Positions 22,514 to 27,588 of a stretch of DNA of 64,000 nucleotides are shown here, one piece after another. Source of the DNA: an uncultured Lachnospiraceae bacterium. GTDB taxonomy: Bacteria; Bacillota; Clostridia; Lachnospirales; Lachnospiraceae. The translations under genes and the position numbers were made by a program. The stretch covers positions 1-64,000 of the forward strand of contig CANPZE010000012.1 in assembly GCA_947589315.1 (NCBI GenBank), given 5' to 3'. Numbering within the stretch: position 1 is the stretch's first letter; every line of letters starts with the position of its first letter. The notes under the pieces were generated by a model. The model was not told the DNA's origin. It made no database searches and saw nothing but the letters and a program-made list of their open reading frames with translations.

Positions 22514-22843
22514 TTATTCTTTTCCGTTCCGTCTTGCCAGGATTTCTGCGATCTCGATCAGTAATACCCGGTCCTCTGTCTGGATGTATGGATGCTCTTC
22601 TTTTAGGAATTCTGTACTTTGTATCTGCTTTGGTTCATATTCACCCTGCAGGATCTCATTCGGGCAAGTATCTAAGGCATAGCAGATAGCAAGGAGTGTA
22701 TCCAGAGACATTTTGGCTGCGCCGCCCTCAATATGGGCGATGTGGTTTGTAGATTTATCAATTCTCTCTGCCAGCTGTGCCTGCGTCATTTTCGTTTGTT
22801 TTCTCAGTTGCTTTACGTTTTGGCCAATCTGTTTTAAATCCAT
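22514..22843 (-). CDS. XRE-family helix-turn-helix regulator (paralog 1)
   Basis: IGQNVKQLRKQTKMTQAQLAERIDKSTNHIAHIEGGAAKMSLDTLLAICYAL. Confidence 0.92.
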   Translation of the reverse strand: MDLKQIGQNVKQLRKQTKMTQAQLAERIDKSTNHIAHIEGGAAKMSLDTLLAICYALDTCPNEILQGEYEPKQIQSTEFLKEEHPYIQTEDRVLLIEIAEILARRNGKE

Positions 22844-22854
22844 TTCCTCACCTC

Positions 22855-23190
22855 CTACTGCTGGTTCCGGGTAGCCAGAAGATCGGCAATCTGCGATAGC
22901 AGGAGCTGATCATCGGACTCCATATAAGGGCTGGTCTCCATGAAGAACTCGTCCATATCTTCTTTCTTCATAGGGTACTCTCCCAGCAGGATTTCATTAG
23001 GAGAGGCATTCAGTGCTTTGCCGACGTCCACCAATGTGTCCAGAGACATTTTGGCAGTGCCGCTTTCAATGTGTGCAATGTGGTTTGGCGATTTGCCAAC
23101 TTTATCTGCCAGCTGCGACTGGGTCATATCGATCCGCATCCGCAGCTTTTTTATGTTCAGGCCAATTTGTTTCAAATCCACCGCATTCAC
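22855..23190 (-). CDS. XRE-family helix-turn-helix regulator (paralog 2)
   Basis: IGLNIKKLRMRIDMTQSQLADKVGKSPNHIAHIESGTAKMSLDTLVDVGKAL; similar to the adjacent ORF along its length. Confidence 0.92.
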   Translation of the reverse strand: MNAVDLKQIGLNIKKLRMRIDMTQSQLADKVGKSPNHIAHIESGTAKMSLDTLVDVGKALNASPNEILLGEYPMKKEDMDEFFMETSPYMESDDQLLLSQIADLLATRNQQ

Positions 23191-23619
23191 CTCCTATTTG
23201 CATTATTCATTAGAATAATCGGAATTTTGTAAAATGAAAATGTTATCAGAAACGTGATTCTGGCACAATCCGGATAGGTTTTGTGAAAAAATGGTATTTT
23301 AAATGGTTTTTTTGTAAAAAAACGTAGTTATTTTTTATATTGGGACCACTCTTTTTGATAATAGTATTGTGGATATGTAAAAATAAAATACGAGAAAAAT
23401 ACAGAGAAATTATGAATACTTTACGGAAGCTCCCTGACCGATATGAGCAGAATTTTTTGTCAAACTATGTTGAATTTCAAATATTGGTATGCTAAATTGT
23501 AAAATGAAATTGGAATATTATGGAAATATTGGAAAAATATGGATAAAGTAACAGAAAATGGATCACACAAAATTACACATAATGCATTCTGACATTTTGC
23601 TATAACAGGAGGGGTCACA

Positions 23620-24951
23620 TTGGTTCGCAAATACATGGAATACGATGTCTATGAGGCGTTATTGCAGCGTTTCCGGCTGCTGTTTGAGGAATTTGAAAAC
23701 ATCTATCTATCCTTTTCCGGAGGGAAAGACAGTGGGCTATTGTTGAACCTATTGCTGGACTATCGCAACAAATATTATCCTGACAGGAAGATCGGGCTTT
23801 TTCACCAGGATTTTGAAGCGCAGTATACGGTAACGACAGAATATATTGAAAGAACCTTTGAGAGAGTCAAGGATGAGGTAGAGCCCTATTGGGTCTGCCT
23901 TCCTATGGCCACCCGCACGGCCCTCAGCAGTTATGAAATGTATTGGTATCCCTGGGATGACAAGAAAGAGGAGTGCTGGGTCCGCGAGATGCCGGATAAA
24001 GAATATGTGATCAATATGAAAAACAATCCCATTACTACATATCATTACCGGATGCATCAGGAAGACCTGGCGAAGCAATTTGGCAGATGGTACCGCAGCT
24101 CCCATGGCGATGGAAAAACGGTATGCCTTCTGGGAATGCGGGCCGATGAATCGCTGCAGAGATACAGTGGTTTTCTGAATAAGAAGTATGGATACCAGGG
24201 ACAATGCTGGATCAGCAGGCAGTTTAAGGATGTGTGGTGCGCTTCTCCCATGTATGACTGGAGCACCAGGGATATTTGGCATGCAAATTATCTTTTTGGC
24301 TATGACTATAACCATCTCTATGACCTCTATTATAAGGCGGGGCTGCCGGTATCCCAAATGCGGGTCGCCTCCCCCTTCAATGACTATTCAAAGGAGGCCC
24401 TCAATCTGTACCGGGTCATTGACCCCAAGATCTGGGTCAAGCTGGTAGGACGTGTGCAGGGGGCTAACTTTGCCTGTATCTATGGAAAGACCAAAGCGAT
24501 GGGATACCGCAATGTGAAGCTGCCGGAGGGGCATACCTGGGAATCCTATACCCGTTTTCTTCTGGATACGCTTCCTGCCAGGCTGCGGAACAATTATGTA
24601 AAGAAATTTAATACCTCCATCCAATTCTGGCATAATACCGGCGGCGGCCTGGATGAGGAAACGATCCGGGAACTGGAAGAAAAAGGATATCAGATTCGGC
24701 GGAACGGGGTGTCCAATTATACCCTGAATAAAAAATCCAGGGTAATATTTACAGAGAAAATCCCTGATGATACCGATGATATCAAGTCCAGTAAAGATAT
24801 TCCCAGCTGGAAACGGATGTGCTATTGCATCCTGAAAAATGATCACATTTGCCGTTTTATGGGATTCGGCCTGACTCGCCAGCAGCAAAAACAGATTGAT
24901 CTGATCCGGCAGAAATACAAAGGAATCGAGGAGGTAGAATATGAGTTATAA
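23620..24951 (+). CDS. IbrA-like protein (PAPS reductase/DUF3440 family)
   Basis: PP-loop IYLSFSGGKDSGLLLNLLL; LGMRADESLQRYSGF; DIWHANYLFGYDYNHLYDLYYKAGLPVSQMRVASPF. Confidence 0.85.
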   Translation: MVRKYMEYDVYEALLQRFRLLFEEFENIYLSFSGGKDSGLLLNLLLDYRNKYYPDRKIGLFHQDFEAQYTVTTEYIERTFERVKDEVEPYWVCLPMATRTALSSYEMYWYPWDDKKEECWVREMPDKEYVINMKNNPITTYHYRMHQEDLAKQFGRWYRSSHGDGKTVCLLGMRADESLQRYSGFLNKKYGYQGQCWISRQFKDVWCASPMYDWSTRDIWHANYLFGYDYNHLYDLYYKAGLPVSQMRVASPFNDYSKEALNLYRVIDPKIWVKLVGRVQGANFACIYGKTKAMGYRNVKLPEGHTWESYTRFLLDTLPARLRNNYVKKFNTSIQFWHNTGGGLDEETIRELEEKGYQIRRNGVSNYTLNKKSRVIFTEKIPDDTDDIKSSKDIPSWKRMCYCILKNDHICRFMGFGLTRQQQKQIDLIRQKYKGIEEVEYEL

Positions 24952-25489
24952 AAGTCCGGCTTACCATGTGATCCCAGTGCCTGTAGAAAAAGTAGAAGCG
25001 AATACATACAATCCTAATACTGTGGCTCCTCCGGAAATGGACCTGCTCTATGACAGCATTAAGGAGGATGGATATACTATGCCAATAGTCTGTTATTACG
25101 ATGGCGCCCGGGATGTATATGTTATTGTAGATGGCTTCCATCGTTACCGTGTTATGCTGGAACATAAGGATATCTATGAGAGGGAGAAGGGGCTGCTGCC
25201 TGTATCTGTGATCGATAAGCCGCTTGACGGGCGTATGGCCAGTACCATACGGCACAACCGGGCCAGGGGGAACCATGATGTGGACCTGATGAGCAATATT
25301 GTCCGGGAATTGCATGAGCTGGGCCGCTCTGATGCCTGGATTTCCAGGCACCTGGGCATGGATCGGGATGAGATCCTTCGGTTAAAGCAGATTACAGGCC
25401 TTGCGGCCCTTTTTAAGGATATAAAATTTGGAAAAGCCTGGAAGCCATCGGAAGAGGAAGATTCTGAGAGAAATCCCCAGGAAAGTTAA
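24941..25489 (+). CDS. IbrB-like ParB-N domain protein
   Basis: VEANTYNPNTVAPPEMDLLYDSIKEDGYTMPIVCYY, VIVDGFHRYRV, STIRHNRARGNH; 11 bp overlap with the upstream IbrA-like ORF. Confidence 0.85.
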   Translation: MSYKSPAYHVIPVPVEKVEANTYNPNTVAPPEMDLLYDSIKEDGYTMPIVCYYDGARDVYVIVDGFHRYRVMLEHKDIYEREKGLLPVSVIDKPLDGRMASTIRHNRARGNHDVDLMSNIVRELHELGRSDAWISRHLGMDRDEILRLKQITGLAALFKDIKFGKAWKPSEEEDSERNPQES

Positions 25490-25497
25490 GTAAGACA

Positions 25498-25526
25498 TTG
25501 ACATGTATTTGGTAATATCTTATAAT
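25498..25526 (+). promoter_or_regulatory. consensus sigma-A-type promoter
   Basis: TTGACA (25498-25503), 17 bp spacer, TATAAT (25521-25526). Confidence 0.8.
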
Positions 25527-25659: not shown

Positions 25660-27588
25660 ATGGAGATAATTTGTTTAGAGGAAGAAAAATGTGTGGGGTG
25701 TAATGCCTGCGTCAGAGTCTGTCCGGCAAGGGACGCCAATATTGCACGTATGGGAGAGGATGGACAGCTGAGGATATCCATTGATGAAGAGAAATGTATT
25801 CGATGCGGCGCCTGCATTAAAGCCTGCGCTCATCAGGCAAGATATTATAAGGACGATATACACGAGTTCCTGGAAGCGTTAAAGTCTGGGGAAGAGATAG
25901 CTATGATCGTTGCTCCTGCTGTCAAGATCGCTTTTGATGGGAATTGGCGTCATGCGTTACAGTGGCTGCGCAATCAAGGTGTGAAGGCAATTTATGATGT
26001 AGGTTTCGGCGCAGATATTTGTACCTGGGCTCACCTTCGATATCTCCAACAGCATCCGGATGCCAAGGTTATCTCCCAGCCCTGCGCAGCGGTAGTAAAC
26101 TATATCCAGCGCCACAGGACGGAGCTGATCCCAAGCCTTTCTCCGGTACAGAGCCCGATGATGTGCATTGCCATTTATATGCGGAAGGTATTGGGATATC
26201 GGGGGAAGATCGCCGCGCTTTCTCCTTGCATTGCCAAGATTGATGAATTCCGGGAGACGAAAGTTATTGATTATAATGTGACCATGGAGCATTTGAGGGA
26301 CTACTTTAAAGAACAAGGAGTACATCTGCCAGAGGTCAAGCTTTACAGTGAATTTGAGTTTGATGAGCAGCAGGGCCTGGAAGGATCCATATATCCCAAG
26401 CCCGGCGGATTGATGACCAATCTGCTAATTCATGATCCTACGCTGGAGGTGGTCACCTCTGAGGGTACCGGGAAGCTGTATGAGGATCTGGATATATACG
26501 GGGAACAGCGCAGAGAGTGGCTTCCTACTGTTTTTGACGTACTGAACTGTGAGAATGGATGTAATGGGGGACCGGCCGTAGGCGTGGATTACCAGCGGTT
26601 TGCCATGAATAACATCATGTATAAGGTAGAGCAGCATGCAAGACAGGTCAGGAAGGCTAATGTAAGCCGGAGGGGAGTAGACAAGCAATATGCCGAGTTT
26701 GATAAGAAACTTAACCTGAACGATTTCCTGCGTTCCTATACCGACCTGAAGGGATCTGCCAAGGAGGTTACGGAGAGAGAGATCAATCAGGCATTTGAGC
26801 TGCTGGGCAAGCATACAAAGGAGGAGAGATCCTTCGACTGTCATGCCTGCGGATTTAAGTCCTGCCGCGATATGGCCATAGCTCTGGCCAAAGGCCTTAA
26901 TGAGAAAGAAAACTGCCATCAATTCATGATGCATTCTATCCGTGAGGAGCGCCAGAAGGTAACGGAAGTCAATGACGAAGTGTTGACAATGAATCAGGAA
27001 CTGATGGAAATCTTCAATCAATTGACAGACAATATTGAGAAGGTAAAGACAGAGACTGACAGTATCCGTGAGGTTGGCAACAGGAGCAGCGAGGAAATGG
27101 GAAATGTAGCCAGCCATATGCATGAACTGAACCAGTTAAACCAGAATATTTCCAAATCCATGGAGAATATTAATTCCAGTGTAGAGCAATATAATATTAT
27201 GACGCAGGATGTAGAAAAGATTGCAGGCAAGATCAATCTGCTGTCCCTGAATGCAGCTATTGAGGCGGCGCGGGCAGGAGAAGCCGGCAAGGGCTTTGCT
27301 GTAGTCGCATCCAACATTCGGGATCTGTCAGACAGCTCCCGGGCATCTGTAGGCAATGCCAAAGAGAATGATGAAGGCATTCATCAGGCAATCTCGGATG
27401 TCAATGTGGTGACTAAGAACTTTAATGAAGCAACGGATGAATTGCTCCACGCAATAGATATTGCCAGAGAAAATGTAGGCAAGACCTCAGAGAAGAGTGT
27501 GATGATCCAGGAATCCATGGATACGGTAAGCCGCATTGCCGAAAAGGTGCAGGAGGTTATCCAGAATACCAATGCGATCCTGCGTTGA
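25660..27588 (+). CDS. soluble [FeFe]-hydrogenase-like / methyl-accepting chemotaxis fusion (putative sensory hydrogenase)
   Basis: Two 4Fe-4S ferredoxin motifs ([23 protein letters not shown]), H-cluster-type cysteines ([31 protein letters not shown]), Fe-S motif [29 protein letters not shown] core [34 protein letters not shown]; no TM segment seen. Confidence 0.88.

Follow-up and report, generated by a model that had tools for sequence, protein, structure and literature searches.

The window analysed here, a stretch of 64,000 nucleotides from an uncultured Lachnospiraceae bacterium, carries two co-directional genes, ibrA and ibrB, preceded by a predicted promoter and a candidate operator (Table 1). 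A sequence-only reading had taken them for an IbrA/IbrB-type pair with kinship to the PAPS-reductase/DndC and ParB/sulfiredoxin families, an assignment that Pfam, PHROG and Foldseek comparisons bear out. The two open reading frames and their overlap of 11 nt are as it described, and the motifs SGGKDS in IbrA and VDGFHRY and RHNRARG in IbrB are present. The arrangement is stable beyond the window: of 39 Lachnospiraceae loci, 36 have ibrB co-oriented with ibrA and directly 3' of it, and the commonest overlap is again 11 nt. Values of dN/dS of about 0.03-0.05 for close ibrAB pairs indicate that both are real genes under strong purifying selection. The pair is a well-conserved member of a known, functionally unexplained family.

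Table 1. Features of the ibrAB locus, in window coordinates.
Feature	Position	Strand	Description and basis
XRE-family regulator a	22514..22843	-	neighbour outside the cassette; Pfam HTH
XRE-family regulator b	22855..23190	-	neighbour outside the cassette, divergent from ibrA; Pfam HTH_3
Predicted conserved ibrA promoter	23455..23504	+	TTTTGTCAAACTATG-TTGAAT-17 nt-TAAATT; -35 TTGAAT 23470-23475; -10 TAAATT 23493-23498; extended -10 TATGC
Candidate operator	23510..23545	+	tandem TTGGAA..TATGG boxes 23510-23526 and 23529-23545, just 3' of the -10
ibrA ribosome-binding site	23607..23614	+	AGGAGGGG; from sequence
ibrA	23620..24951	+	443 aa, TTG start; PP-loop (HUP) ATP-type domain ~28-240, DUF3440 241-424; Pfam, PHROGs, alignments, AlphaFold model (pLDDT 86), Foldseek to FAD synthase/CysH/CysD
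ibrB ribosome-binding site	24930..24934	+	GGAGG, within ibrA
ibrB	24941..25489	+	182 aa, ATG start; ParB_N/Srx NTP-binding fold plus ParB/KorB/Noc-type helix-turn-helix (~113-160); PHROGs, alignments, AlphaFold model (pLDDT 82), Foldseek best matches KorB/ParB/Noc

The two XRE-family genes noted alongside in the sequence-only reading are indeed there and, being 56% identical, represent a tandem duplicate. A partnership with ibrAB is not supported, however, as no close homologue stands beside ibrA in other Clostridia loci; weak XRE matches occur in just a few of about 120 loci, with one of them, in a viral locus (L212), near ibrA. On the other side of the pair, a gene for a [FeFe]-hydrogenase-like/methyl-accepting chemotaxis fusion protein occupies positions 25660-27588; the sibling species have no clear orthologue of it. 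Between this gene and ibrB lies a promoter that matches the consensus perfectly (TTGACA-17-TATAAT, 25498-25526). We rejected the fusion gene as a partner of ibrAB because of this promoter of its own and because no orthologue recurs beside ibrAB; the orthologue search at ibrAB loci returned MCP-type matches only, at 27-32% identity.

IbrA matches DUF3440 (PF11922, residues 241-424, E = 4.6e-89), PAPS_reduct (PF01507, residues 28-238, 6.1e-8) and phrog_2302 (3.9e-96). The SGGKDS loop, D64, E66, W112, R122, GxRxxESxxR, P210, D213, D218 and other positions are invariant in the alignments. The folds nearest to the IbrA model are the PAPS domain of FAD synthase, CysH and CysD, with TM-scores that span the PP-loop domain alone; DUF3440 returned no identified relative. 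IbrA shares with these enzymes the HUP/PP-loop fold and a P-x-x-D-W-x-x-x-D-x-W stretch, but it differs from them in lacking the CysH thiol motif, in the added DUF3440 and in its pairing with a ParB-like protein and not with sulfate or flavin genes. In a profile alignment the position of SGGKDS is taken by SSFGIQ in CysH, and a GKD-type loop is retained in CysD and FAD synthase. The thiol motif ECG[LIM]H was found in none of 138 IbrA relatives, and no cysteine is invariant across 15 diverse members. C93 and C411, which are near-invariant in a closer set (kept in 91% and 95%, respectively; n = 66), leave room for some thiol chemistry.

A clear APS kinase is present in eight of 40 ibrA-positive Lachnospiraceae genomes, which implies that PAPS cannot be the general substrate of IbrA. 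The window's own genome is among these eight and can probably make PAPS; it also has two more PAPS_reduct-family genes, all three lying outside the window's contig. On the contig itself no further PAPS_reduct-family gene was found. The retained ATP-type PP-loop, the absence of the CysH cysteine motif and the lack of a clear APS kinase in most ibrA hosts make "PAPS" a superfamily label. IbrA is no working PAPS reductase and is independent of PAPS, in agreement with the earlier view that simple PAPS reduction does not fit. The name has led annotators to label phage copies as sulfur auxiliary genes. With the ATP-type loop, the fold, the absent CysH motif and the rarity of APS kinase taken together, ATP-dependent adenylylation is the likelier chemistry for IbrA, judged from motif and fold.

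IbrB matches phrog_2159 (3.6e-77), with a ParB_N match under the Pfam cut-off, and its model finds KorB as the best Foldseek match (E = 4e-7), along with ParB and Noc. A ParB/Srx NTP-binding fold is followed by a ParB-type helix-turn-helix, and the sequence contains the motifs DGFHR and TIRHNRARGNH. DGxHR and RxNRAxGxH, the motifs relevant to a putative binding and hydrolysis of CTP or ATP, are invariant in the IbrB alignment, which includes YbdM and phage IbrB. The NTP-binding fold and the helix-turn-helix are common to IbrB and ParB, Noc and KorB. IbrB differs from them in the lack of a ParA, in its DGxHR motif and in its small size, since the model stops after the helix-turn-helix and the C-terminal dimerisation domain is absent. 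ParB, Noc and KorB carry a GERR-type motif at the position of DGxHR. No partner gene that would provide a parA-type link recurs beside clostridial ibrAB, and this, together with the missing dimerisation domain, upholds the earlier doubt about a partition role.

The ibrAB cassette is predicted to have a conserved promoter of its own. Its consensus across unrelated contexts reads TTGTC..A.TTTTGTTGAATTT-N10-A.TGTG.TAAATT. A position weight matrix detects sites in 29 of the 82 regions upstream of ibrA that were compared, across different genera and with unrelated flanks, at scores far above the shuffled maximum; the strict pattern, found in 14 of the 82, is absent from the rest of the 1.32 Mb that these loci comprise. 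A stretch resembling a Spo0A box (TTTGTC[AG]AA, 23455-23470) is located just 5' of the -35 element and is seen in six of the 82 upstream regions against 0.26 expected, which is at most suggestive of sporulation or stationary-phase control of ibrA.

Boxes of the type TGGWAA are arranged as direct or inverted pairs just downstream of the promoter or, in some genera, within its spacer. In the window's 2.96-Mb genome both exact copies precede ibrA, and neither an exact nor a one-mismatch site occurs elsewhere. Strict forms are present in 27 of the 82 ibrA upstream regions as opposed to two independent sites elsewhere in the 1.32 Mb (eight further matches represent the opposite strand of inverted-repeat sites and were not counted as independent); the box core occurs in 24 of the 82, where 0.36 would be expected. 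The strict box is missing from more than half of the clostridial ibrA upstream regions and was not found in 1.12 Mb of viral sequence. A search for the direct-repeat form in 32 genomes gave 46 matches, more than the reversed-pattern control; among the 30 matches that were classified, nine lie at ibrA, 12 in coding sequence and the remainder near unrelated genes. For the inverted-repeat form, four of six sites are at ibrA. Besides ibrA no recurring direct-repeat target, and no wider regulon, was found in the 32 genomes.

The recurrence of ibrA-specific boxes across genera suggests autoregulation. As the cassette's own promoter is the sole recurring site and no other linked gene common across genera could encode a box regulator, the regulator is most simply encoded by the cassette itself, and IbrB would be the box-binding protein. 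However, phage IbrB proteins have a recognition helix that is nearly identical in the alignment to that of the window protein, yet strict boxes are missing from viral sequence, and IbrB may therefore not bind the boxes. A precedent by analogy for autoregulation is DndB of the ParB superfamily, which accompanies the PP-loop enzyme DndC and reportedly controls its own transcription in an ATP-dependent manner (PMC10853773). A riboswitch or other RNA element ahead of ibrA was considered and rejected: the window has no Rfam match and the leader folds no better than its shuffles (z = 1.2), for which reasons we treat the boxes as DNA sites. To our knowledge, and as far as the open-access literature shows, neither the minimal composition of the cassette nor its private promoter and boxes have been described before.

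ibrA occurs as a single copy in the window's genome, in neither of the two other genomes of the genus, and above the cut-off in 70 of 397 Lachnospiraceae genomes (about 18% of those sampled). Further relatives are found in E. coli K-12 (ybdN/ybdM), in Listeria, in 593 plasmid records and in phage records, of which 211 have relatives of IbrA and 218 relatives of IbrB. In some 40 regions from Lachnospiraceae, the cassette is solitary and flanked by unrelated, mostly housekeeping genes, with no neighbour gene shared over these regions. Among 121 flanking proteins there is no clustering of phage or defence functions, and the few PADLOC matches resemble generic families, e.g., cysteine desulfurase. 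Neither sulfur genes nor a Dnd or Ssp set recur in the neighbourhoods. The methyltransferases or defence islands that the sequence-only reading had considered as possible company are not what surrounds clostridial ibrAB.

The distribution of ibrA favours lateral transfer. Identities of IbrA proteins to that of the window range over 67-87% and do not track those of the housekeeping protein PyrH (63-77%; Spearman 0.14, p = 0.42, n = 38), and ibrA is missing from both sibling species. Vertical inheritance is disfavoured by the same observations, though uneven rates or loss may still contribute. Comparison with the two sibling species gave no clean insertion boundary because synteny is lost upstream of pyrH.

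Insight into the origin of the cassette is provided by the phage relatives. Modules composed of SNF2, IbrA and IbrB on IMG/VR contigs and in Lactobacillus phage CR28, as well as lmo1309-1310 of Listeria, have the same IbrA and IbrB as the window. They carry SNF2 directly upstream and often have further genes, for proteins of 110-124 and of 141 aa, a GNAT acetyltransferase, a cupin or a SAM methyltransferase; none of these is found in the clostridial cassette. The survey covered 164 loci from genomes and viruses in which the IbrA ORF is intact, and the helicase was counted by homology. IbrA has an SNF2-type helicase in its vicinity, nearly always directly 5', in 32 of 87 viral contigs, eight of nine alphaproteobacterial and six of 21 other cellular loci, but in none of 47 clostridial or bacillar loci. 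GNAT companions, the identity of which was confirmed, are present in 12 of the 21 other cellular loci (largely Bacteroidota) and in three viral ones, and an ectoine-synthase-like cupin (PF06339, E = 2e-40) in 12 viral loci. The order in Listeria is 124 aa - SNF2 - IbrA - IbrB - SAM methyltransferase. The helicase, methyltransferase, GNAT and cupin companions are nucleic-acid or tailoring enzymes. A conserved protein of about 141 aa adjoins IbrA/IbrB in 33 viral loci (e.g., L222:10224-10649) and has no notable Pfam, PHROG or PDB relative.

Two further features of these loci may be mentioned. In Mycobacterium phage Gaia and marine phages the cupin is fused to IbrB or located beside it (L043:10606-11505, L100:9248-10178, L205:9317-9700). 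The five-gene operon of Listeria monocytogenes (L098:4388-8508) adjoins the gene set pyrH-frr-uppS-cdsA-dxr, which in the window is found about 5 kb away from ibrAB.

Trees of 121 (FastTree) and 51 (IQ-TREE) IbrA proteins, rooted at the midpoint, both unite the solitary Firmicutes IbrA in one clade with a support of 98. The sister group of this clade in the FastTree analysis comprises five viral proteins, the majority of which have SNF2 upstream; the SNF2-linked Alphaproteobacteria come next, and the E. coli IbrA-type proteins are placed on a distant branch. Most simply read, the trees make the clostridial pair a descendant of a phage module with a linked helicase, the helicase having been lost or left behind; the phage-to-cell direction is taken from the midpoint root and from gene content in place of an outgroup. 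A phage connection is in this sense indicated by the nearest relatives, but as a present state it is not supported, since the clostridial pair itself now stands among chromosomal genes.

The E. coli counterparts are more remote. IbrA/IbrB of E. coli are encoded on an island of strain ECOR-9 and are described, in papers citing Sandt et al. 2002, as activators of prophage eib genes. They and the K-12 pair YbdN/YbdM have the same two-gene order and the same domains (PP-loop plus DUF3440; ParB_N plus HTH) as the window pair, with identities to the window proteins of 31% for YbdN and 46% for YbdM. CitR, a LysR protein, represses ybdNM in K-12. The clostridial cassette, by contrast, has no linked LysR gene but a conserved promoter and TGGWAA boxes of its own. 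The phosphorothioation systems DndC/DndB and SspD/SspE likewise pair a PP-loop ATPase with a ParB-superfamily partner, and that partner has been reported to autoregulate (PMC10853773). Unlike these, ibrAB is without a desulfurase, without DndD/E or SspB/C partners and without an invariant cysteine set.

We tentatively favour, without regarding it as established, the interpretation of ibrAB as a self-contained and self-regulated cassette akin to the phage SNF2-helicase/IbrA/IbrB module, which would combine an ATP enzyme with an NTP-switched DNA-binding partner. IbrA would be a PP-loop enzyme that uses ATP for adenylyl transfer, comparable to CysD or FAD synthase and not to a PAPS reductase, and may activate its target through adenylylation. 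IbrB, as an NTP-switched DNA-binding protein like ParB, KorB or Noc, would bring IbrA to its site and could shut off the cassette's own promoter via the TGGWAA boxes. Nucleic acid would be the most likely target, and the effect would become visible as altered expression of specific genes, frequently carried by phages, in line with what has been reported for eib in E. coli. An ATP enzyme that acts on nucleic acid and is guided by IbrB is favoured by the invariant catalytic set and by the helicase, acetyltransferase and methyltransferase companions in phages. A more specific version, possible although on the unlikely side, is that the pair founds an undescribed ATP-dependent nucleic-acid modification. 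NTP-switched IbrB would select the sites at which IbrA adenylylates either a base or the backbone; elaborated versions would arise in phages through the SNF2 helicase, GNAT, cupin or methyltransferase partners, and the version in clostridial chromosomes would be minimal and self-regulated.

The strongest rival interprets IbrAB as purely a nucleotide-sensing transcription regulator, with IbrA sensing ATP or some other nucleotide without catalysis and IbrB serving as co-activator or repressor at host and prophage promoters. It would account for the complete ParB-type helix-turn-helix of IbrB, for the conserved promoter and boxes at ibrA and for the raised prophage eib expression attributed to E. 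coli IbrAB, where ibrB is credited with the enhancement of Eib (PMC7649339, citing Sandt et al. 2002). An entire catalytic PP-loop set that is invariant over a very wide range would nevertheless be unusual for a mere sensor. As phage operons moreover add helicase, GNAT, cupin and methyltransferase genes, and the 32 genomes reveal no wider box regulon, we judge this interpretation rather unlikely, if still deserving of attention. Anti-phage or anti-plasmid defence, either similar to DndC/DndB or by superinfection exclusion, is improbable: superfamily kinship with DndC and ParB-type partners, the phage kinship and the patchy distribution in the family agree with it, and the only match of ibrA in PADLOC-DB 2.0 is DndC, though a weak one (20 bits, 5.7e-5). 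Against it stand the housekeeping character of the Lachnospiraceae neighbours and their generic PADLOC matches, the absence of a nuclease or toxic effector from the clostridial cassette, and the fact that many phages carry the pair themselves.

Still less probable is a role of IbrA in sulfur metabolism, as a PAPS/APS reductase or an ATP sulfurylase under the regulation of IbrB. Its superfamily membership and the APS kinase and PAPS_reduct-family genes of the window's genome might be cited in its favour, as might the joint rise of ybdN (log2 5.5) and cys genes (log2 about 2-2.8) in an E. coli citR mutant (PMC9068703). The latter is, however, a correlation in a single mutant, and the PP-loop is of the ATP type, ECG[LIM]H is absent from the relatives, 32 of 40 ibrA-positive genomes lack a clear APS kinase and sulfur genes do not recur beside the pair. 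Least probable of all, and very unlikely in our view, is a toxin-antitoxin pair, as guessed by TASmania for Listeria lmo1309/lmo1310. The overlapping genes and the autoregulatory-looking operator would fit such a pair, but the listing of the Listeria homologues is by guilt of association only (PMC7020466), bigger operons exist in phages and Listeria, and ibrA is a large conserved enzyme gene whose conserved catalytic site is under strong purifying selection. For the favoured cassette of ATP enzyme and DNA-binding partner, the independence from PAPS, the kinship to a stripped phage module and the own promoter with its boxes give what was an annotation problem a testable form, centred on the protein that binds the boxes, the use that IbrA makes of ATP, and the changes in DNA, RNA or transcription that follow the loss of the pair.

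Plasmids provide some additional observations. On a Subdoligranulum plasmid, an ORF resembling TnpA of the IS200/IS605 type (L265:4388-4846, named by eye) lies about 1 kb 5' of an ibrA with 80% identity, and an element of this kind is a possible carrier of the ibrAB cassette. Distant IbrA relatives are encoded on 323 Klebsiella and 188 Escherichia plasmids, and one E. coli plasmid has a LysR gene after the pair, similar to citR beside ybdNM in K-12.
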